64,000 bases of DNA from NCBI GenBank assembly GCA_947489705.1, contig CANLEQ010000002.1:1-64000 (forward strand), given 5' to 3'. The notes beneath the pieces were generated by a model. That model was not told the origin of the DNA and searched no databases. It worked only from the letters and a program-made list of their open reading frames with translations. The position numbers and the translations under genes were made by a program. Origin of the DNA: an uncultured Paracoccaceae bacterium. GTDB lineage: Bacteria > Pseudomonadota > Alphaproteobacteria > Rhodobacterales > Rhodobacteraceae. Positions 53,182 to 64,000 of the stretch are shown here, in pieces (the stretch's first letter is position 1; every line of letters begins with the position of its first letter).

Positions 53182-55533
53182 TCACTCGCCGTAGGGAACC
53201 CAGATGTTCTTCACCTGCGTCGCGCGGTGCAGGAAGCCGCGGCCGTAGCCTTCGCGCCCGGTCCAGTCCCGCGCGCCGTCGGCCTCCACCCAGGTCTGCT
53301 TGAGGTTGCCGGCGCTTTCGCGCTCGACCATCGCCGCGCCCTCGCCGCCTCCGACATACCACATTCCCGCCACGCCGTCGTGCTGTGCCAGGGTCTTGGC
53401 CAGGTCGTCGCGCGGGCCGGTCACGATGTTGACGACGCCGCCCGGCACATCCGAGGTTTCCAGCACCTGGTAGAAGTCGGTCGCCGCCAGTGGATGCGCC
53501 TGCGAGGGCACCGCGACCACGCTGTTGCCCATGGCGATGGCCGGCAGGACCAGACTGACAAAGCCCAGAAGCGGCCGGACCGTCGGGCAGACAACCCCCA
53601 TCACGCCCAGAGGCTCGGGCATGGCCAGCGTCACATGCGCCGACTTGGTCTGGTGCACCGCGCCGTCGAACTTGTCGGCCTGCGCGGCATACCAGAAGCA
53701 GCGGCGGATCGCGGTCTCGACCTCGGTCTGCGCGTCCTTGCCCTCTGACCCGAAACTCGCGAGGCGCTCGGCGAATTCGGCCGCGCGCGCCGAGAGGTTC
53801 TCGCCCAGATAATAGAGCACCTGCGCGCGGTTGTGTCCCGTGGCACGGCCCCAGCCGCCGGCCTTGCCCGCCGCCTCGACCGCGTTGCGGATATCCTTGC
53901 GGTTGCCGAGGCCCACGAGACCCACCGGGCCGTTCGGGCCTTCGACGGCGTAGGAATAGCCCGAATCGGGCCGCGCCTGCTTGCCGCCGACATAGAGCTT
54001 CGCCGTCCGGTCGATGCCAGCCCCGGTGCCGCCGCCATGGGGCACCGCCTGCAACGCAGCCGGATCCGGCGCCCTGCCCTTCGGCGCGCGGTGGCGCAGA
54101 TAGGCCATCATCCCCTCGCGCCCGCCCTCGCGGCCGAAGCCGCTCTCGCGGTAGCCGCCGAAGCCCGCGCCCGCGTCGAGCACGTTGGTGCAGTTGATCC
54201 AGACCACGCCCGCCTTCACCTGCGCCCCGATGTCGAGGCAGAGATTGACGTTCTCCGACCAGATCGACGCGGCGAGGCCGTAGCGGGTGTTGTTGGCGAG
54301 ATCCACCGCGTCCGAAGGGGTCCGGAAGGTGGTCATCGTCACGACGGGCCCAAAAATTTCCTCGGTCGAGAGCACGCTCGCGGGCTCCACATTCGTGACC
54401 AGTGTCGGCGGGTAGAAGCAGCCCTCGGGCGCGCTGCCCTGGTGCAGGACGGCGCCCTCGGCCGCGCCCTTCGCCACCAGATCGCGGATGCGCGCGAGTT
54501 GCACGGGATGCACGATCGCCCCCATATCGGTCGACTTGTCGAGCGGGTCGCCCACGCGCAGCGTCGCCATCCGGGCGCGCAGGAGCGCCTCGAACCGCTC
54601 GGCCACCGCCTCGGCCACGAGGATCCGCGCGCCGGCGCAACAGACCTGCCCCTGGTTGAAGAAGATCGCGTCGACCACCCCCTCGACCGCCCCGTCGAGA
54701 TCGGCATCGGCGAAGACCAGATAGGGCGACTTGCCCCCGAGCTCCAGCGTCAGGCCCTTGCCCGACCCCGCGATCTGGCGACGGATCGACTTGCCCACCT
54801 CGGTCGAGCCGGTGAAGGCCACCTTGTCGATGCCCTCGTGGCCGGTGATGGCGGCACCCGTCTCGCCGTCACCGGTTACGAGGTTGACGACGCCTGCCGG
54901 CAGGCCCACCTCGGCGCAAATCCCGGCAAAGGCCAAAGCGGTCAGCGGCGTATACTCGGCGGGTTTCAGGACCACGGTATTGCCCGCGGCCAGCGCCGGC
55001 GCGATCTTCCACGCCAGCATCAGCAGCGGAAAGTTCCACGGGATCACCTGTCCGCAGACGCCCCAGGGCTCGGTGCCCGGCAGCTCGTCCTCGGCGATTT
55101 CGGCCCAGCCGGCATGGTGATAGAAGTGCCGTGCCACCAGCGGCACGTCGATGTCGCGCGTCTCGCGGATCGGCTTGCCGTTGTCGATCGTCTCGAGCAC
55201 GGCGAGGAACCGGGCATGCTGCTGCACGTGGCGCGCGATGGCATAAAGATACCGCGCCCGCTCGTGCCCCGACAGCGCAGCCCAGGGGCCTTGGGCCTTG
55301 CGCGCGGCCGCCACCGCCGCCTCGACATCCGCCGCGCTGCCTTGCGTGACCTTGGCGATCACCTCGCCGGTCGCGGGGTTCTGCACGTCGAAGGTGGTGC
55401 CGGGCGCGGTGAATGCACCGTCGATGAAATGGCCGAAGCCCCCCGCATGGGCGTCGAGCCAGCCTCGCGCGATCGACGCGTCCTCGGGCGCGGGGCCGTA
55501 TTCCATCGTCTTCAATATCTCCTGGATGCTCAT
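53182..55533 (-). CDS. ALDH16-type fused double aldehyde dehydrogenase
   Basis: The 783-residue protein holds a complete aldehyde dehydrogenase (about 35-490) with the NAD site WNFPLLML, TGSTEVGKSI, general base Glu264 in LELGGKSP and the nucleophile Cys298 in NQGQVCCAGARI, followed by a second, shorter ALDH-like domain (about 510-783). The second domain keeps PLGVMGVVCPTVRPLLGFVS and the Rossmann-like parts but has no Cys nucleophile loop. This matches bacterial ALDH16, where the first domain is active and the second mediates oligomerisation. As the last gene after deoC it probably oxidises acetaldehyde to acetate. Start at 55533 follows AGGG; the frame extends further up without signals. 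Confidence 0.88.
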   Translation of the reverse strand: MSIQEILKTMEYGPAPEDASIARGWLDAHAGGFGHFIDGAFTAPGTTFDVQNPATGEVIAKVTQGSAADVEAAVAAARKAQGPWAALSGHERARYLYAIARHVQQHARFLAVLETIDNGKPIRETRDIDVPLVARHFYHHAGWAEIAEDELPGTEPWGVCGQVIPWNFPLLMLAWKIAPALAAGNTVVLKPAEYTPLTALAFAGICAEVGLPAGVVNLVTGDGETGAAITGHEGIDKVAFTGSTEVGKSIRRQIAGSGKGLTLELGGKSPYLVFADADLDGAVEGVVDAIFFNQGQVCCAGARILVAEAVAERFEALLRARMATLRVGDPLDKSTDMGAIVHPVQLARIRDLVAKGAAEGAVLHQGSAPEGCFYPPTLVTNVEPASVLSTEEIFGPVVTMTTFRTPSDAVDLANNTRYGLAASIWSENVNLCLDIGAQVKAGVVWINCTNVLDAGAGFGGYRESGFGREGGREGMMAYLRHRAPKGRAPDPAALQAVPHGGGTGAGIDRTAKLYVGGKQARPDSGYSYAVEGPNGPVGLVGLGNRKDIRNAVEAAGKAGGWGRATGHNRAQVLYYLGENLSARAAEFAERLASFGSEGKDAQTEVETAIRRCFWYAAQADKFDGAVHQTKSAHVTLAMPEPLGVMGVVCPTVRPLLGFVSLVLPAIAMGNSVVAVPSQAHPLAATDFYQVLETSDVPGGVVNIVTGPRDDLAKTLAQHDGVAGMWYVGGGEGAAMVERESAGNLKQTWVEADGARDWTGREGYGRGFLHRATQVKNIWVPYGE

Positions 55534-55543
55534 GAGGGTCCCC

Positions 55544-56551
55544 TTACGACGCGGCGTGGCGGTGCGAGGCGGCATAGCGCCCGGTGACATGGTGTTCGAG
55601 CTGCCGCTCGATATCGCCCAGCATTGACGACGCGCCGAAGCGGAAGAGGTCCGGTTCCAGCCACGGCCGGCCCAGCTCCTCCTTCATCAGGATCTGCCAG
55701 CCGAGCGCCTCCTTGGCCTGCTTCATCCCGCCCGCGGGCTTGAAGCCGATCCGCGTGCCCGTGGCGGCGCCGTAATCCCGGAGCGCACGGATCATCACGA
55801 GGCTGACCGGAAGGGTCGCGTTGACCCCCTCCTTGCCGGTCGAGGTCTTGATGAAATCCGCGCCCGCCTGCATCGCCACCATCGACGCGGCATAGACGTT
55901 CCTGAGCGTTTGCAGGTCGCCCGTCGCGAGGATCGCCTTCATGTGCGCCTCGCCGCAGGCCTCGCGCATCGCGCGGATCTCGTTGTGGAGCGCCTGCCAA
56001 TCCTGGCGCAGGACATGCTCGCGGGTGATCACGATGTCGATTTCATCCGCACCCTGCGCCACCGCCCATTCGATCTCCCTCAGTCGCAGGTCTAGCGGCA
56101 TGAGCCCCGCCGGAAAGCCCGTGGCGACGCTCGCGACCGGAATGCCGGAGCCGTCGAGCGCCTCGACCGCATGCGGCACCATTGTGGGATAGACGCAGAC
56201 CGCGCCGACGGTGAGACCCATATCGGCGATCCCGAGCCCCTCGACGATCCGGTCGGCCAGCGGCCGCCGCGCCTTGGCGCAAAGCCTGCGCACCTTTCCG
56301 GCGGTGTCGTCGCCCGAGAGAGTCGTCAGGTCCACGAGCCGGATCGCGTTGACGAGCCACGCCGCCTGATGCGCCTTCTTGACCGACCGCCGCCCGCCCA
56401 GCGTCGCCGTGCGCCGCTCGGTCGCCGATCGGTTGACGGCATGCCCCTCGAACATCGAAAGATCGAGTGCCATGCCCCGATTGCGGCCGGAAGCGCGCGT
56501 CGCCAGCGTCGCCGGGAGCGCGTGCCCCTGCTCGTCGTGTTTCACGTTCAT
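55544..56551 (-). CDS. deoC: Deoxyribose-phosphate aldolase
   Basis: The 335-residue class I aldolase splits 2-deoxyribose-5-phosphate into acetaldehyde and glyceraldehyde-3-phosphate. Key residues are all present: Asp172 in ADEIDIVI, Schiff-base Lys235 in ADFIKTSTGK and Lys271 in GFKPAGGM. It is the longer form with about 60 extra N-terminal residues. Start at 56551 is preferred; an ATG at 56575 is an alternative. It is 10 bp before the ALDH16 gene and 28 bp after the kinase gene. Confidence 0.94.
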   Translation of the reverse strand: MNVKHDEQGHALPATLATRASGRNRGMALDLSMFEGHAVNRSATERRTATLGGRRSVKKAHQAAWLVNAIRLVDLTTLSGDDTAGKVRRLCAKARRPLADRIVEGLGIADMGLTVGAVCVYPTMVPHAVEALDGSGIPVASVATGFPAGLMPLDLRLREIEWAVAQGADEIDIVITREHVLRQDWQALHNEIRAMREACGEAHMKAILATGDLQTLRNVYAASMVAMQAGADFIKTSTGKEGVNATLPVSLVMIRALRDYGAATGTRIGFKPAGGMKQAKEALGWQILMKEELGRPWLEPDLFRFGASSMLGDIERQLEHHVTGRYAASHRHAAS

Positions 56552-56579
56552 AATCCTGTCCTCGCCCTCTCGCATGGCT

Positions 56580-57527
56580 TTATCGCCGCTCCGCGGCCAT
56601 CGCGTCGCGGTCGCGACAGAAGGCGTCGAACGCGGCGGCGTCGGCATAGCTCGATTGCGTGCCCCGGCCGGTGATCGAATGGGCGGCGTAGCGCGCCGCG
56701 CGCGACAGCGCCTCCTCCGGCGTGGCCCCGCCCGACAGGAACCGTGCGAAACTGCCGATAAAGGCGTCGCCGGCCCCGGTCGTATCGACGGGCTCGACCG
56801 CGACGGGGGCGATTTGGATCACGTCATCCTGGGTGATGAGCCGCGCCCCGCGCCCGCCCAAGGTGACGATCACATTGCGGATGCCGCGCCCCGTCAGGGA
56901 CCGTGCGGCCGCGAGAACCGCCGCGTCGCTATCGGTCGGCATCCCCGACAGCATCGCGAGTTCGCTCTCGTTGGGGCAGAACCAGTCGAGCCCCTCGAGC
57001 CGCGACAGGTCGAGTTCGGGATGGGCGGGCGCCGGGTTGAGGATCGTCTGCACCCCGTGCCGCGCCCCGAACGCGACCGCGTGATAGACCGTCTCGAGCG
57101 GCACTTCGAGTTGCAGCAGGATCGCGTCGCAGCGTTTCAGCGTGTCTTGCGCCGCGTCGATGTCGTCCGGCGACAGGTGGGCATTCGCGCCCTTCACGAT
57201 CAGGATCGCGTTCTCTCCGTCCGGCTCGACGAAGATCGGGGCCACGCCTGACGGCGTCCCCGCGACGCTGCGGACATGGGACACGTCGACCCCGTTATCG
57301 GCGAGGTTCTGGCGTGTGCGCGGCCCGAAGAGGTCGTCGCCCACGCAAGTCACCATCGAGACATGCGCCCCGAGCCGCGCCGCGGCCACCGCCTGGTTGG
57401 CCCCCTTGCCGCCGAAGCCCAGCGCGAAATCCGGCGCCTCGAGCGTTTCGCCCCGTTCGGGCATCCGGTCTACATAGGTGACGAGATCGACCATGTTCGA
57501 TCCAACGATGGCAATACGGTCAGGCAT
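56580..57527 (-). CDS. deoK: Deoxyribokinase-type PfkB sugar kinase
   Basis: The 315-residue protein has the RbsK fold: GGKGANQAVAAA substrate loop, NPAPAHPEL and the catalytic TTGAGDAFIGS. The N-terminal motif reads GSNMVDL, with Met12 where ribokinases have Asn (GSINAD). Met at this place, and the flanking GETLEAP, SGVAPIFV and GTQSSY segments, are features of Salmonella-type deoxyribokinase rather than ribokinase. It should make 2-deoxyribose-5-phosphate for deoC, which follows after 28 bp. A plain ribokinase role is less likely in this company. Confidence 0.82.
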   Translation of the reverse strand: MPDRIAIVGSNMVDLVTYVDRMPERGETLEAPDFALGFGGKGANQAVAAARLGAHVSMVTCVGDDLFGPRTRQNLADNGVDVSHVRSVAGTPSGVAPIFVEPDGENAILIVKGANAHLSPDDIDAAQDTLKRCDAILLQLEVPLETVYHAVAFGARHGVQTILNPAPAHPELDLSRLEGLDWFCPNESELAMLSGMPTDSDAAVLAAARSLTGRGIRNVIVTLGGRGARLITQDDVIQIAPVAVEPVDTTGAGDAFIGSFARFLSGGATPEEALSRAARYAAHSITGRGTQSSYADAAAFDAFCRDRDAMAAERR

Positions 57528-58626
57528 GTTTCGGGTCCTTTTCGGTGCCGCCGATGGCGGCGATCCTTGCGGCAAGCGTCTCGGCCTCGTCGCGCGTGAC
57601 GTAGCCGAACCGCGCCATGAAGTTCCGGGTCTCGCCGGGGCCGAGCGTCTCGATATTGCCCTTGGCCTTCTCGGCGAGATAGCCCTCGGGCTCGCAGGTC
57701 GACGGGAGCGCGAAGGCCGCGACGCTGGCATCGGCGCCAAAGAGGATCCACCGCGCCATATGCCCGAACTCCGCCGTTGCGTAGGACATCGCGAAGCCGT
57801 CGCCCTCGGGCCGGGCGAGCATGGCATGGGTGAGGCCGTCCGCATCCGTTCCGGGCGCGTCGACATAGATCACCTGCTCGGGCGTCCAGCGCGACGGCCG
57901 GTCGAGCGTGCGCCCGGTGGCAGGGTCGCGCGCCAGCTCGTCGAGGAAGGCGCGATAGGCGTCGTCCGGATCGACATGGGCGGGGACCTGCGTGCGCACG
58001 CGGGTGCGGTCCGGCGCGAGGGGCGCCGGCTGGTGGATCACGCCGTTCTCGACGAAGGCGAAGTTGACATGCGCCATGTACATGAGCTCCATCGGCAGGG
58101 CCGAGCGGTTCTCGACCGCCATCCCCATGCCGATGATCGTGCCCTCGCCCACGCTCACAGAGGGGCGCGCGCGATAGTTCGGCCCGAAGGCCAGGACGTG
58201 ATCCACGTGCCCGCCGATCCGGACGATCGGCGCGCCGTCCTCCTCGGTGAATTCCAGATGGGCCGCGTCCATCCGTTTGCAGGGCATCTCGCCATGCAGG
58301 GGATGATCATCGTCGGGTCCGGGGCAGCCATTGGCCAGAAGCCCGCTGTGATAGGCGAGGCAGCCATAGGTCTCGGCGATGGACGTCGCGGGGCGCGGCT
58401 CGGGAAAGGCGCTCTCCATCGTCAGGCGCACGCCGTCGAAGACCGCGTCCCAGATCATCTGCCCCATGAGGGGCAGCACCTCGACATGGCCGCGCGCGGT
58501 GGCGACGCGCAGCATCTCGATCCCGAGCGCGGTACGCCAGGCCGTGACGGTGAACGCGCCGCTTTGTGCGATGACCTGCTCGGCCGGTCCGAACATCGCG
58601 GGCTGCAGGGGGATGGTCACGTTCAT
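57520..58626 (-). CDS. DUF4432 aldose-epimerase-like protein (DeoX-like)
   Basis: The 368-residue protein has the galactose-mutarotase beta-sandwich pattern: RGHVEVLPLMGQMIWDAVFD, ETYGCLAYHSGLLANGCPGP, HPLHGEMPCKR with the conserved His, and VENRSALPMELMYMAHVNF. This is the DUF4432 family; in enteric deoxyribose operons a member (DeoX) accompanies deoK. It probably interconverts anomers of the imported sugar before the kinase step. The 3' end overlaps the kinase start by 8 bp. Confidence 0.8.
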   Translation of the reverse strand: MNVTIPLQPAMFGPAEQVIAQSGAFTVTAWRTALGIEMLRVATARGHVEVLPLMGQMIWDAVFDGVRLTMESAFPEPRPATSIAETYGCLAYHSGLLANGCPGPDDDHPLHGEMPCKRMDAAHLEFTEEDGAPIVRIGGHVDHVLAFGPNYRARPSVSVGEGTIIGMGMAVENRSALPMELMYMAHVNFAFVENGVIHQPAPLAPDRTRVRTQVPAHVDPDDAYRAFLDELARDPATGRTLDRPSRWTPEQVIYVDAPGTDADGLTHAMLARPEGDGFAMSYATAEFGHMARWILFGADASVAAFALPSTCEPEGYLAEKAKGNIETLGPGETRNFMARFGYVTRDEAETLAARIAAIGGTEKDPKHA

Positions 58627-58628
58627 GC

Positions 58629-59645
58629 TCAACGTCCCTTCCGGCCGCGCAGCGAATTGAGGGCGATCACGGCGATCAGGAACGCCCCCCAGACGAAGTC
58701 GATGAGGTGGTTCGACACACGCATCATCTGGAACCCCGAGGACAGCAGCGTGAGCGAGATCACGGCCAGCGCCACGCCCAGCACGTTGCCCTTGCCGCCT
58801 GCCGGATTGGTGCCGCCGAGCACGGCGATCAGGACCGCCTGCAACAGGTAGGACGCGCCGTAATCCGACTTCGCGGCGTTCGTCCGCGCCGACAGCAGGA
58901 TGCCCGCCATCGCCGCGAGCCCGCCGGTGAGGATGTAGGACCACACGATCATGCGCCCCCGCTCGATCCCGGCGAAAAGCGACGCCTTGGGGTTGGTCCC
59001 GATCAGTTTCAGACGCAGGCCGAACGACGTGCGCGACAGCAGCAGCGACAGCGCCACGCAGAGCACCGCGAAGAGCACGAGCGGCACCGGGATCGCGGCG
59101 ATCTTGCCGTTGCCGAGCCACGTCCACCCCGCGGGAAAGCCCACGATCGCGGGCCCGCCCGTCAGGACGAGGCAGAGCCCGATGAACACCTGGCCCGTCC
59201 CCAGCGTGGCGAGGATCGGCGTGATCCGGAGCCTCGAGATCAGCAACCCGTTGAGAAGCCCCGCGAGCGCGCCGACGATCAGCCCGACGCCCACGCCGAG
59301 GATCACGGCACCCGCGCCGAGCGATCCCGCCCCCGCCTCGCCCGCGAGATAGCCGAAGAGCGTGCCTGCGGTGATGCCCGCGAGGTTCGCGACGCCGATG
59401 ATCGACAGGTCGATCCCGCCCGTCAGCATCGCGATCATCATCGCGACCGACAGGATGCCGAGCTCGGGCATGAAGAAGGCCATCGATTCGAAATTGTACG
59501 ACGACAGAAACATGTCCGGCCGAAGCGCCGTCATCACCGCGAGGATCAGAAGGCAGATCACCCCGAGCTGCACGTTGGTATTGCCGCTGGACCTCAGCAG
59601 CAGCCGGCCGACGCCGTCATTCTCCACCGTTCCCGACTGGCTCAT
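58629..59645 (-). CDS. Sugar ABC transporter permease, RbsC type (second copy)
   Basis: The 338-residue permease has about nine membrane helices. It contains MIAMLTGGIDLSIIGVANLAG, the conserved GGIDLS motif of RbsC/XylH, LRITPILATLGTGQVFIG and VLIAVLGGTNPAGGKGNVLG. It forms a heterodimeric channel with the permease encoded just upstream. The stop abuts the DUF4432 start (2 bp gap). Confidence 0.9.
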   Translation of the reverse strand: MSQSGTVENDGVGRLLLRSSGNTNVQLGVICLLILAVMTALRPDMFLSSYNFESMAFFMPELGILSVAMMIAMLTGGIDLSIIGVANLAGITAGTLFGYLAGEAGAGSLGAGAVILGVGVGLIVGALAGLLNGLLISRLRITPILATLGTGQVFIGLCLVLTGGPAIVGFPAGWTWLGNGKIAAIPVPLVLFAVLCVALSLLLSRTSFGLRLKLIGTNPKASLFAGIERGRMIVWSYILTGGLAAMAGILLSARTNAAKSDYGASYLLQAVLIAVLGGTNPAGGKGNVLGVALAVISLTLLSSGFQMMRVSNHLIDFVWGAFLIAVIALNSLRGRKGR

Positions 59646-59659
59646 CTTCCGATCCTCCC

Positions 59660-60637
59660 TCAGACCAGCGCGCGACGGTCGCGCAGCGCCGTCACGGTGA
59701 CGGCCGCGAGCAGCATCGCGCCCACGACGACCCGCTGCCATGTCGTGTCGATCCCCATCAGGATCAGCGAATTCTGGATCATGACGAGGATGAACACGCC
59801 CAGCACGGTACCGAGGACCGTTCCCCGCCCGCCGAAGATCGACGCGCCGCCAAGGACCACCGCCGCGATCACGTCGAGCTCCAGCCCGACGAAGTCGCGC
59901 GGATTGGCGAGCCAGATCATCGAGGAATGCAGAAGCCCCGCAAAGCCTGCAAGCGCCCCCGCCGTGCAATAGACGAAGATCATCGTGCGCCCGGTCTTGA
60001 ACCCCACCCGCTTGGCCGCCTCCGGGTCGGCCCCGTAGGCATAGACCGACCGCCCGATCATGGTCCGCGTCAGCACGAGATGCATGCAGAGCGCCGCCGC
60101 GACATAGATCGCGATCATCGCGGTCAGCCCGTAGGTCGTGCCGTTGGCCCGTTCCAGCGTCGCGATGTCAGTGCGCCCGAAGGCGATCAGGGCGTCGGGC
60201 ATCTGGTTGATGTTGACGTTGGAGGTCCCGACGAGCCCGAGCACCAGCCCCCGGACCACCGAGGCGGTGCCGAGCGTCACGATCAGCGGGATCATGTTGA
60301 ACTTGTGGATGATGCCCGCATTCATCAGCCCCAGAAGCCCGCCGATCGCCGTCGCGCAGAGGAAAGGCAGGATCACCCCGTCATAGTCGAGCGCGACCAT
60401 CGAGCGGACGACCAGGTACATGCCTGCCACCGCGAAGGCGGTGAACGACACGTCGATCCCGCCCGAGATCATCACCAGCAGAACGCCCAGCGCCATGAGG
60501 CCAATGACAACGTTGGACTTCAAGAGGCTGAAGATGTTCGACAATTGCCAGAAGGCGGGATTGACGAGCCCGATGAACACCATCGCCACCAGAAGGATCA
60601 GCGCGATCACCACGTCGGCGTTGTTGAAGAGCTTCAT
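59660..60637 (-). CDS. Sugar ABC transporter permease, RbsC type (first copy)
   Basis: The 325-residue permease has the same fold: [39 protein letters not shown] and [17 protein letters not shown]. Two non-identical permeases in one operon mean a heterodimer, as in LsrCD and rhamnose transporters, rather than the single RbsC. The start overlaps the ATPase stop (ATGA). Confidence 0.9.
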
Positions 60638-62151
60638 GCCGTCTCCCTCGCGCTCGCGCCGGCCATCGACGCTTCGAGCGCGTCCTCGGTCAAAGCGTCG
60701 CCCGCAAGCTCGCCGGTCAGACGGCCGTCCTCCATGGTGAGCACGCGGTTGCAATTGGCCGCGAGCTCCGGAAGGTCGTCGGAGATCATCACGACGGCGA
60801 GCCCCCGGTCGCGGGTGAGGCCGTGGATGATGCCGTGGATCTGCTCCTTCGAGCCCACATCGACGCCCACCGTGGGCCCGTTCAGGATCAGAAGCCGCGC
60901 ATCGGTCATCAGCCACCGGCCGATCACCACGCGCTGCTGATTGCCGCCCGACAGGGTCGAGACGGGCACGTCGGTGCCCGGGGCCACGATCTGCATGTCG
61001 TCGAACATCCTTTCGGTCTCCGTGCGGGCCCGCCCGGCATCGAGCCACAATCGCGGCGCGTAGCGATCCATGGCGGCCGAGATGGCGTTGTCGCGGATCG
61101 AGCGGCCGAGGAACAGCCCCTCGGACAGGCGATCCTCGGGCACATAGGCGACGCCCGCCGCGATCGCGTCCGAGACCGATGCGGGCGCGAGCCGCGCCCC
61201 GTCGATCTCCATCCGGCCGGTCACGTCCTGCCGGAGCCCGAAGATCGCCTTGGCGAGCGTCGTGCGCCCGGCGCCGATCCGTCCCGACAGGCCCACGACC
61301 TCGCCCGGCATGACGCGCAGCGAGACGTCGTGGACATCGTCGCCGACGCTCACGCCCTCCAGTGTCAGGCGCGGGGTCGCGTCCCGGTCGCGCCGAGGTG
61401 CGGCGAAGCGCCCGGTATTGAGGTCCCGGCCGGTCATGGCGCGGGTGATCGCGCGCTCGTCGAACTCGGCGATGGGGCCCTCGGCCACCTTCTTGCCATT
61501 GCGGAACACGCTCAGCGCCTCGCTGATCTCGAGCATCTCGCGCATCTTGTGACTGACGAAAAGAACGGCGATTCCCTGCTGTTGAAGGTCGCGGACGATG
61601 CGGAACATGCGCTCCACCTCGCGCCCCGTCAGCGCGGTGGTCGGCTCATCCATGATGATCAGCCGTGCCTCGGCCAGCACCGCGCGGGCGATGGCCACGA
61701 TCTGGCGGCCCGCGGCGGGCAGCGTCTCGACATTGGCATCGAGATCGAGATCCACGTCGAGCCGATCGAGCACCTCGCGCGCCATCCGGCGCCCGCGGCG
61801 CCAGTCGACCGTCTTCTGCCGCTCGCGCAGGTAGGTGTTGAGGAACAGGTTCTCGACCACCGTCAGCGTCGGAAAGAGCGACAGGTCCTGATAGATGACC
61901 TGGATGCCGTGCGCGATCGACGTGGCGGGATCGAGGCGCCCCGGCGATTTCCCGTCGAACAGGATTTCGCCCTCGTCGGGTTGATAGACACCCGAGACGA
62001 TCTTGATCAGCGTCGATTTGCCCGATCCGTTCTCGCCGGCGAGACAGCGGATCTCGGCGCGCTCGATCGTCATCGACACGTCGTCGAGCGCGCGAACGCC
62101 GCCGAAACGCTTCGAGATACCGCGAAGCTCGATCAGGGGGGGCGATGCCAT
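60634..62151 (-). CDS. Sugar ABC transporter ATPase with tandem domains (RbsA/MglA family)
   Basis: The 505-residue ATPase has two nucleotide-binding domains: the first with [18 protein letters not shown] (about 39-56) and MDEPTTALT, the second degenerate at Walker A ([17 protein letters not shown], where Arg replaces Lys) but with [15 protein letters not shown] and [12 protein letters not shown], where the usual Asp-Glu reads Asn-Gly. This asymmetry is normal for the carbohydrate CUT2 class. It powers the two permeases downstream. Confidence 0.92.
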
Positions 62152-62172
62152 GGAATGCCTCCGGGCGAAGGG

Positions 62173-62201
62173 GGACGCGGCGCCGGCGATGCGCCGCGTC
62201 C
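62173..62201 (-). promoter_or_regulatory. Intercistronic hairpin after the deoxyribose-type binding-protein gene
   Basis: A perfect 11-bp stem GGACGCGGCGC / GCGCCGCGTCC with a 7-base loop, in the 57-bp gap between the binding-protein stop and the ATPase start. No T-run. It is the third such hairpin placed just after a binding-protein gene in this window. Confidence 0.65.
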
Positions 62202-62208
62202 GGTCGGA

Positions 62209-63252
62209 TCAGAAGTCGTACTGATCCATGTTCTCTTCGGTCACGCCGACCCAGCCCGCGCCATAGAGCACGTTCTGCCGGTCCTCGCCCGCCACCTGGA
62301 GATCGCGATACCCTTCGAGGCCGAGGTCGGTCCCCGCGGCGATCTGGTCGCCGCGTCCCTCGAGTGCCGCCACCGCGAGCATGTTCATGGCATAGCCCGC
62401 GACGGCGGGGTCCCAGAACTGGATATACGAGATGTCGCCGTTCGCGATGTATTCGCCCGCCACCGACGGAAGGCCGGTGCCCGCGAAATGGAGCTGTCCC
62501 TGGAGACCGCTTTCGGCGATCAGGCGCCCCGCCCCGGCGGATGTGGGCATCGGCCCGCCGACGATACCCGTGATGTCGGGATGCGCGGTCAACGCCTCCT
62601 TCAACTTGGTGTAGTCGGTGTTGGCGTCGTCATATGTTTCGAGCCGGTCGGTCGCCTGCTCCATGTCGGGATAGGCTTCCTGCTGGCGCGCGACGGCGCC
62701 GTCGATCCATTCGTTCTGCGACTTCGAGGTCAGGCTGCCGACGGTGGCGACATACTGCCCCTCCTCGCCCATCTGCGCGGCGAGCTCGTCCATCAGCTTG
62801 GCACCGTAGGCGAGATTGTCGAACGCCTCGATGTCGTAATCGACGTTCTGGATGTTCGACGCTTCATGGCTGATCACGACGATGCCGCGATCGCGGGCCT
62901 TATGAAGCACCGGCTCGACCGCCTCGACCGAGAACGGCACGATCGCGATCGCGTCCACGCCCTGGGCGATCAGGTTCTCGACCAGCTGCACCTGCGCCGC
63001 GGCATCCGCCGAGGACGGGCCCACCATCCAGGTGTCGTGCCCGGTATCCTCGCCGAATTGCTGCACCCCCTCGCGCATCCGGTCGAACCAGGCGATGCCG
63101 TCGACCTTGACGACTGTGGCGATCGAATAGGTCTCGTCCGTCTCGATCAGGTCCTGGTTGATCTCGCTCGTATCGACCACCTGATCCTGCGCCTGTGCGC
63201 CGCCGGCAGCCACGATCGCCGCGACGGCCATGGCCGTGAATTGTACCTTCAT
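62209..63252 (-). CDS. Sugar-binding protein, CUT2 class (LsrB/RhaS-like)
   Basis: The 347-residue periplasmic protein has a signal peptide (MKVQFTAMAVAAIVAAGGAQ, cleavage AQA-Q near 22), then SIATVVKVDGIAWFDRMREG and DAAAQVQLVENLIAQGVDAI, which group it with the autoinducer-2/rhamnose-type binding proteins. Automatic annotation would likely say autoinducer-2 binding, but the downstream genes (kinase, deoC, mutarotase, dehydrogenase) lack lsrK/F/G counterparts and fit deoxyribose. It is the first gene of the eight-gene operon. Confidence 0.88.
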   Translation of the reverse strand: MKVQFTAMAVAAIVAAGGAQAQDQVVDTSEINQDLIETDETYSIATVVKVDGIAWFDRMREGVQQFGEDTGHDTWMVGPSSADAAAQVQLVENLIAQGVDAIAIVPFSVEAVEPVLHKARDRGIVVISHEASNIQNVDYDIEAFDNLAYGAKLMDELAAQMGEEGQYVATVGSLTSKSQNEWIDGAVARQQEAYPDMEQATDRLETYDDANTDYTKLKEALTAHPDITGIVGGPMPTSAGAGRLIAESGLQGQLHFAGTGLPSVAGEYIANGDISYIQFWDPAVAGYAMNMLAVAALEGRGDQIAAGTDLGLEGYRDLQVAGEDRQNVLYGAGWVGVTEENMDQYDF

Positions 63253-63354
63253 GACGTCTCCTCCCTGTTCGGCTCCCCGCCGAGTTCCATTGCGCCGGTT
63301 TCTGTTCGGATCGCAACATTACTCGGCAGAGGCAAGCAATCCTGCGCCGCCGCG

Positions 63355-64000
63355 TCAAGAGGAATCGTCGCGGCGCCCCGCCGGAGCGGCCTCGGGATCC
63401 GCGTTCCAGGGGCGAATGCCGTGCTCGGTCACCAGACCCGACAGCTCCGACAGATGCGCGAAGCGTGCCGCCCGGCTGCGGCCGAGCTTGCTGGAATCCA
63501 TCACCGACCAGACCACCCGCCCCGCGGCAAGCGCGGCGCGTTTCATCGCCACCTCATAATCATGCGAGCAGCTCAGCATGTCGCCGCCGTCGAGCCCGCC
63601 CGCCGACAGGAACGCGACGTCGATGTCGAACGCCGCCAGCACCGCCGCCGGATCGGGCGGATGGCACGACCGCGTGCGATGCTGCAGCGTGCCCCCGATG
63701 AACTCGACCTCCGCCTCGGCCTGCCCGTGCAGAAGCTCGGCCACCGTCAGGCAATGGGTGACGATCCGTCCGATCCGCGCGCGCGACAGGGCGCGCGCCA
63801 GATGCGGCAGGGTGGTTCCGGTATCGAGAAAGACGCAGGCGCCCTCGGGGACCAGCGTGGCGGCATGGGACGCGGCCTGCCGCTTGGCCTCGATCGCACG
63901 GCGCATCTGCCGGTCGAAATCGTAGTCGCCGAAACCGCGTTGCCGCACGATGTAGCCGCCCTGACAGACGAATCCCGCCCGGCCCGTCGCCGCGTCGCGG
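63355..64000 (-). CDS. DeoR-family transcriptional regulator, N-terminus outside the window
   Basis: The visible 214 codons give the sugar-phosphate-sensing domain of a DeoR-family regulator: AIEAKRQAASHAATLVPEGA, the effector motif FLDTGTTLPHLARAL, VTHCLTVAELL and LSAGGLDGGDMLSC, then VVWSVMDSSKLG. The frame stays open to base 64000 (GRAGFVCQGGYIV in the linker), so the winged helix-turn-helix lies to the right. It is 102 bp upstream of the binding-protein gene on the same strand and likely senses a phosphorylated sugar such as 2-deoxyribose-5-phosphate to control the operon. Confidence 0.88.
   Translation of the reverse strand, partial: RDAATGRAGFVCQGGYIVRQRGFGDYDFDRQMRRAIEAKRQAASHAATLVPEGACVFLDTGTTLPHLARALSRARIGRIVTHCLTVAELLHGQAEAEVEFIGGTLQHRTRSCHPPDPAAVLAAFDIDVAFLSAGGLDGGDMLSCSHDYEVAMKRAALAAGRVVWSVMDSSKLGRSRAARFAHLSELSGLVTEHGIRPWNADPEAAPAGRRDDSS

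Follow-up and report, generated by a model that had tools for sequence, protein, structure and literature searches.

A 64,000-nucleotide stretch of DNA from an uncultured Paracoccaceae bacterium (contig CANLEQ010000002.1, positions 1 to 64,000; hereafter the window) carries, between positions 53,182 and 64,000, an operon in which genes for an ATP-binding cassette (ABC) sugar importer, a DUF4432 protein and an RbsK-fold kinase are followed by deoC, encoding a long form of deoxyribose-5-phosphate aldolase (DERA), and by the gene for ALDH16, a two-domain aldehyde dehydrogenase (ALDH). Our analyses reveal that bacterial ALDH16 is tied to this long DeoC, and that the pair is found in settings of deoxyribose or deoxynucleoside use and in one unexplained setting with an FGGY kinase. 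This one-to-one tie is new as far as the open-licence papers listed show, among which, judged in part by title, none was seen to link ALDH16 to deoC; the primary ALDH16 structure paper may contain a mention. The operon itself probably imports and catabolizes free 2-deoxy-D-ribose, with ALDH16 oxidizing the resulting acetaldehyde to acetate.

Among 289 alphaproteobacterial genomes, ALDH16 is present in 29 (E ≤1e-120) and DeoC proteins of the long, window type are present in the same 29, with E values of 9.9e-102 or better; the next DeoC match reaches only 2.7e-39. In all 29, deoC lies upstream of the ALDH16 gene on the same strand, separated from it by 5 to 318 bp, and in one genome (G220) the ALDH16 gene is divided over two contigs, its 5′ part adjoining deoC. 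A phylum-wide sample gave the same picture, with ALDH16 in 40 of 349 genomes and long DeoC (E ≤1e-45) in the same 40. Here, 40 of the 41 pairs lie on one contig in the order deoC–ALDH16, with gaps of 8 to 824 bp; the remaining pair (G334) is split, with deoC close to a contig end and ALDH16 close to the beginning of a different contig. Five positive genomes are common to the two samples, which together contain 64 positives. The genomes are not independent, and hypergeometric values for the phylum-wide sample therefore cannot be read as probabilities; however, the families f1, f159 and f160 include genomes without a match to either gene.

The wider scan of genome contigs, for which an alignment of the C-terminal domain served as the query, covered the 80 top-ranking loci out of at least 582 relatives. 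These are the loci most like the alphaproteobacterial profile, and more distant ALDH16s may differ. Eight of these 80 loci have less than 300 bp of upstream sequence, leaving 72 testable, and a long deoC lies directly upstream of ALDH16 in 70 of the 72 (69 found by script plus L117, in which the ALDH16 frame is broken). L149 and L151 represent one contig in two bins, such that the distinct loci with an upstream deoC number 69 of 71. By record title, the set includes Bacteroidota, Beta- and Gammaproteobacteria and Gemmatimonadota, among other groups; several members are metagenome-assembled genomes (MAGs) and possibly mis-binned, but the Lacihabitans, Duganella, Pseudoduganella and Simiduia entries come from strains. 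The earlier note on this DNA, made from the sequence alone, had named the absence of deoC–ALDH16 co-occurrence in relatives as grounds for refutation; the adjacency is instead near-universal (29/29, 40/41 and 70/72).

The pairing is, within this sample, specific to long DeoC. No ALDH match was obtained in any of 42 loci with other DeoC types (E 1e-3, up to ~4 kb on each side; in six of the 42, one or both flanks are shorter than 3 kb, and in G069 a flank is only 11 bp long). The queries, consisting of the true frames of six ALDHs from the window's own genome and the ALDH16 catalytic domain, do detect unrelated ALDHs when applied to four loci outside this set. The stretch contains deoA or deoB for 33 of 41 other-type DeoC loci. 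The simple proposal that every deoC needs a neighboring ALDH was rejected on the basis of this control.

Full-length ALDH16 is encoded in 107 of the 116 loci examined. Classified by reference matches, with few references and some short stretches, 32 of the 107 have deoA, deoB or deoD in the stretch, 9 have an FGGY kinase and a zinc alcohol dehydrogenase-like gene, 8 have the ABC-deoxyribose operon and 58 have none of these. The earlier note held that the operon gives ALDH16 a pathway. The link to DeoC is borne out, but the pairing is found mostly outside the ABC operon, and the pathway gained would thus be DeoC-dependent catabolism of deoxyribose and deoxynucleosides in general. Because DeoC is common to the settings, a DeoC product is likely to be the natural substrate of ALDH16; this would be acetaldehyde, as central metabolism already provides a dehydrogenase for the other product, glyceraldehyde-3-phosphate.

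Could the pair simply be a frozen ancestral neighborhood with no metabolic link? The near-invariant adjacency, with both proteins inherited as a block, would fit such an origin, and the DeoC and ALDH16 distances do correlate (r 0.82 across 103 loci, compared with at most 0.20 in 999 permutations), which indicates joint inheritance and not contact. However, the operons that contain the pair are of several kinds, and a single family can include genomes with both genes alongside genomes with neither, a pattern in which a passive neighborhood would hardly be kept. We therefore regard this explanation as very unlikely.

Several observations weigh against a strict or fully explained functional pair. 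Two testable loci have ALDH16 without an adjacent deoC, L137 from a Roseilinea MAG and L165 from a Kangiellaceae MAG with ~1.9 kb of upstream sequence, the latter being one of the 32 loci with deoA, deoB or deoD. Some of the wider deoC–ALDH16 gaps hold one or two small same-strand open reading frames (ORFs) of 69 to 126 aa with no Pfam match, and a few pairs are therefore near rather than touching. In addition, as the other DeoC types have no neighboring ALDH, the need to dispose of acetaldehyde is not a sufficient explanation for the pairing. Small gap ORFs are seen in several Rhodobacteraceae (L257, L258, L259, L260, L261 and L252); two of these ORFs, in L259 and L260, are near-identical and, judged by eye, membrane-like proteins. 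The genes upstream of ALDH16 in L137, also by eye and with no search made, are lactate-utilization-like and flavin-monooxygenase-like.

Inspection of the FGGY-type loci (L087, L094, L099, L104, L109, L111, L115, L119 and, on a Phyllobacterium plasmid, L040) shows deoC–ALDH16 together with an FGGY kinase and a galactitol-1-phosphate-dehydrogenase-like enzyme, with an ABC importer in most. The nearest models of the kinase are ribulokinase and xylulokinase, under cut-off, and the Phyllobacterium locus also has a regulator whose closest model is Bacillus DeoR, again under cut-off. This arrangement implies that a different sugar or polyol feeds into the pathway at the level of deoxyribose-5-phosphate.

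The operon in the window comprises eight genes, all re-derived from the sequence and all on the minus strand, with products assigned by Pfam and NCBIfam profile searches (for NCBIfam, the best 25 of 191 models). These encode a periplasmic sugar-binding protein (62209..63252; Peripla_BP_4), a tandem ABC ATPase (60634..62151; two ABC_tran stretches), ABC permeases 1 and 2 (59660..60637 and 58629..59645; BPD_transp_2 in each), a DUF4432 protein that is probably a deoxyribose mutarotase of the DeoX/DeoM type (57520..58626; PF14486, E 6.5e-20, above cut-off), a PfkB/RbsK-fold kinase that is probably a deoxyribokinase (56580..57527; PfkB), the long-form DeoC (55544..56551) and ALDH16 (53182..55533; two Aldedh stretches). 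The binding-protein and ATPase genes are separated by 57 bp, followed by gaps of −4 bp (ATPase–permease), 14 bp (permease–permease), 2 bp (permease–DUF4432), −8 bp (DUF4432–kinase), 28 bp (kinase–DeoC) and 10 bp (DeoC–ALDH16). Thus, the description in the earlier note of eight genes in one direction, with overlaps or gaps of at most 57 bp, is reproduced by the re-derived range of −8 to +57 bp. So is its placement of a DeoR-family gene ahead of the operon: 102 bp upstream of the binding-protein gene lies a DeoR/GlpR-family regulator gene, the 3′ part of which occupies 63355..64000 on the minus strand and matches DeoRC (PF00455, E 5.8e-38). This gene starts outside the window and runs to about C2:64140, its start codon being uncertain. 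The identical eight-gene order is found in annotated plasmid records of Pacificitalea, Agrobacterium, Pseudochrobactrum, Roseicitreum and three Paracoccus species, and the 80 genome-contig loci contain three further carriers (L091, L093 and L118). As it recurs in plasmid records of several genera, the order is more than chance.

The binding protein, which we take to be of the CUT2 class, is 66–82% identical to 15 orthologs, and the tandem ATPase scores under the cut-offs of the NCBIfam sugar equivalogs among the best 25 models. Sequence records name the binding protein "autoinducer 2 ABC transporter substrate-binding protein," and the LsrB model matches it with an E value of 1e-25, as might be expected of an LsrB-like autoinducer-2 (AI-2) uptake system. 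That match, however, amounts to 90 bits against a cut-off of 384, NCBIfam profiles detected no LsrK, LsrF or LsrG among the nine scanned genes, and the enzymes that the operon does encode include DeoC and a kinase that groups with DeoK-like proteins. Uptake of AI-2 was rejected on the low LsrB score and the absence of the lsr enzymes from these nine genes, and we consider it extremely unlikely.

Ribose requires closer consideration. The importer and kinase could handle ribose, or both ribose and deoxyribose, with DeoC and ALDH16 as passengers or serving a second substrate. The solved binding protein nearest to that of the window, PDB 5BRA (76.5% identity over 328 positions), is titled "with substrate ribose," the kinase exceeds the cut-off of the NCBIfam ribokinase model TIGR02152 and, in the available part of one report, Salmonella DeoK phosphorylates ribose as well (PMC13432705). 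Set against these points, RbsD is not among the operon genes, as judged by Pfam and gene re-derivation; the kinase clusters with those of DUF4432 clusters that have a major facilitator superfamily (MFS) permease; and every ABC cassette read contains deoC, except that of Nitratireductor, whose deoC–ALDH16 pair lies elsewhere on the plasmid. A plain ribose operon was downgraded on account of the missing RbsD and the Met at kinase position 14, though 5BRA is still ribose-named. Overall, we judge the ribose or dual-sugar explanation to be improbable.

The grouping of the kinase comes from a 33-member FastTree phylogeny, midpoint-rooted and read without branch supports, in which the window kinase falls with kinases of MFS-type rbsK–fucP–DUF4432 clusters and apart from the ribokinases of rbs operons; one member, H55, is from an unrelated plasmid setting, whereas two further plasmid matches in such settings, H58 and H62, were left out of the analysis. 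The window kinase carries the motif GSNMVDL, with Met at the position of E. coli RbsK Asn14, as the earlier note had pointed out. Across the 33 kinases this residue is Met in 20, Val in 7, Asn in 5 and Ala in 1. Nineteen of the 20 Met-type kinases sit in clusters with DUF4432, and three of the five Asn-type kinases are from rbs operons. All seven Val-type kinases are close to a long deoC–ALDH16 pair, with an eighth (L125) ~5 kb away on the opposite strand. The Ala-type kinase, from R. leguminosarum, adjoins RbsD, and the Val-type kinase in L071 has an RbsD-like gene as its neighbor; a residue other than Asn is therefore not enough by itself to rule out ribose. The best PDB matches of the window kinase, which are presumably human enzymes, are named ribokinase and have Met; the corresponding residue is Phe in the ribokinase 5ZWY and Asn in E. 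coli RbsK. A general rule by which any non-Asn residue at this position denotes deoxyribose is weakened by the Ala beside RbsD and the Phe of 5ZWY. A separate clade of ribokinases, which have FVAD where RbsK has the INAD motif, was noted near deoC–ALDH16 in L046, L056, L058, L059, L063, L071 and L122, and a relative of this clade beside RbsD carries FAAD. The FVAD clade is possibly a second origin of deoxyribokinases.

The case for deoxyribose as the imported sugar rests on the company that the kinase and the DUF4432 protein keep. ABC–DUF4432–kinase cassettes with a short DeoC (223–233 aa, annotated lengths) at their head, and no ALDH16 in the stretch, are present in Azospirillum, Pseudoroseomonas, Thalassospira and Aureimonas. 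The short and long forms of DeoC belong to one family but are only distantly related within it, and the ABC cassette therefore appears to have become linked to DeoC on more than one occasion. This recurrence of the cassette with a different, short DeoC in four genera renders deoxyribose better supported than ribose or AI-2. In Burkholderia and Vibrio casei, a FucP-type permease replaces the ABC system, with the kinase–DUF4432 core beside DeoR and deoC, while on an E. coli plasmid the kinase–DUF4432–FucP core lies beside DeoR without deoC; the window DUF4432 protein is 41.8% identical to its relative in this E. coli deoR–rbsK–fucP cluster. Consistent with the earlier note, both importer types surround the same DeoR, DUF4432 and kinase core, with the ABC importer standing in place of the MFS permease, and the E. 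coli plasmid has the layout that the note had ascribed to enteric operons, a DUF4432 protein paired with an MFS permease. In 15 DUF4432 neighborhoods, drawn from 64 plasmid records with a DUF4432 relative, a kinase and a DeoR-family gene are present in all 15 and deoC in 13; the two without deoC are those of the E. coli plasmid and Nitratireductor. On the plasmid of Nitratireductor rhodophyticola, the ABC–DUF4432–kinase cassette is ~50 kb from the deoC–ALDH16 pair (loci L238/L264), and thus the two halves can be unlinked.

Building on the observed gene content, gene order, conservation, orthology, active-site residues and co-occurrence, we infer the sugar, the ALDH16 substrate and the sense of regulation as follows. 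The binding protein and ABC importer would take up 2-deoxyribose, the DUF4432 protein would interconvert its anomers, the DeoK-type kinase would form 2-deoxyribose-5-phosphate and DeoC would cleave this to glyceraldehyde-3-phosphate and acetaldehyde. Uptake, anomer exchange, phosphorylation and retro-aldol cleavage are predicted by homology to described steps. Oxidation of acetaldehyde to acetate by ALDH16 is the best inference from gene context; with NAD(P)+ as the acceptor, it would draw the reversible aldolase forward and clear a product that is reactive. The DeoR protein is probably a repressor of the operon. The genome has a single deoC match, with deoA and deoB side by side on another contig, and this deoC would also serve deoxynucleosides by way of deoA–deoB. 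In the accessible part of a study of two Burkholderia-group bacteria, the deoxyribose kinase/aldolase route yields acetaldehyde and its genes are important for growth on deoxyribose, with no data for deoC itself in one of the two (PMC6365646).

The long DeoC exceeds the TIGR00126 cut-off, and residues D172, K235 and K271 are invariant in 37 sequences; by eye, the alignment matches K235, K271 and D172 to E. coli K167, K201 and D102, which we take to be the Schiff-base Lys and the catalytic Lys and Asp. The alignment also shows a conserved N-terminal stretch that is absent from E. coli DeoC. An AlphaFold2 model has a mean pLDDT of 84.7, with values of 85–88 for residues 21–50, 67 for residues 51–60 and an average below 50 for residues 1–20. 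The best PDB matches are E. coli-type DERA, and no close relative of the long form is among the 50 matches listed, all of which are DERAs or designs on a DERA scaffold with at most 36% identity. Inactivation through a Cys47-type cysteine was considered as a special reason for the pairing and rejected, as this cysteine is found in 91% of DERAs according to the available text of PMC6016325.

ALDH16 of the window has 783 aa, and residues 1–782 align to PDB 6MVR/6MVU (997 bits). The entries 6MVR–6MVU are presumably of Loktanella ALDH16 (LsALDH16); a solved ALDH16 structure from this genus is mentioned in the accessible part of PMC8160307. The catalytic residues Asn167, Lys190, Cys298 and Glu392 are kept in 108 of 108 aligned rows and the general base Glu264 in 107 of 108, the window sequence being included twice. 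Like LsALDH16 and, by description only, human ALDH16A1, the protein combines a catalytic ALDH domain with a C-terminal ALDH-like domain. Unlike the bacterial ALDH16s, human ALDH16A1 is described as having none of the catalytic residues; it has also been associated with gout and, hypothetically, with HPRT1 (PMC10650815, in the part available).

What speaks against acetaldehyde as the substrate is that ALDH16 scores 467 bits against the 900-bit cut-off of the ExaC acetaldehyde dehydrogenase model and is below all curated cut-offs among the best 25 models, such that no curated model supports acetaldehyde; moreover, our literature search found no bacterial ALDH16 biochemistry or assay, and the available parts of PMC8160307 and PMC10650815 give no ALDH16 substrate or pathway. 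The low score would also suit an ALDH16 whose substrate is a different aldehyde from the same route, for example deoxyribose (to deoxyribonate) or glyceraldehyde, and oxidative deoxyribose routes do exist (PMC6365646, in the portion at hand). Yet the 32 of 107 loci with deoA, deoB or deoD are settings in which free deoxyribose need not be an intermediate, and the metabolite shared between settings would therefore be the substrate or product of DeoC. We consider another aldehyde unlikely and favor acetaldehyde.

A bolder, speculative proposal, which we put forward only as a possibility, is that long DeoC and ALDH16 form an obligate enzyme pair across bacterial phyla, perhaps as an acetaldehyde-channeling complex docked through the N-terminal extension of DeoC and the noncatalytic C-terminal domain of ALDH16. 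Animal ALDH16A1, now a pseudoenzyme, would then be descended from this pair, with DERA as its forgotten partner; human DERA, as we understand it, has a long-type N terminus. In DmpG–DmpF, an aldolase makes acetaldehyde and its partner dehydrogenase consumes it. DmpF differs in being CoA-acylating, and a physical complex between DeoC and ALDH16 is hypothetical.

The kinase/aldolase pathway and the ALDH16 structure were already known, as, we presume, were the MFS-type operon and its DUF4432 member. The window operon shares with the MFS-type deoxyribose operon (presumably named deoQKPX in E. coli/Salmonella, and matched in layout on the E. coli plasmid) a DeoR-family regulator, a GSNMVDL kinase and DUF4432, with deoC linked in Burkholderia and Vibrio; it differs in having a four-gene ABC importer instead of FucP/DeoP, and long DeoC and ALDH16 inside the operon. 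With the cassette of Azospirillum lipoferum 4B it shares DeoR, binding protein, ATPase, two permeases, DUF4432 and kinase, whereas that cassette has a short DeoC at its head, an FGGY kinase at its tail and no ALDH16. The available part of a 2012 genome paper annotates deoK and deoM in A. lipoferum 4B and B510 (PMC3899980), so a deoxyribose kinase and mutarotase in Azospirillum are not a new idea; these genes are presumed to be those of the ABC cassette seen here. The near one-to-one tie of ALDH16 to a single aldolase type turns the substrate question into a direct acetaldehyde assay. The operon, in turn, points to an ABC-type uptake route for the DNA sugar, seen on plasmids from Alphaproteobacteria of soil, plants and the sea, a coherent pathway masked by the automatic names ribokinase, autoinducer-2 binding protein and aldehyde dehydrogenase family protein. 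The genome also contains a second DUF4432 gene (G000:C38:4664-5611, L075), which scores 328 bits in Pfam compared with 71 bits for the operon copy.

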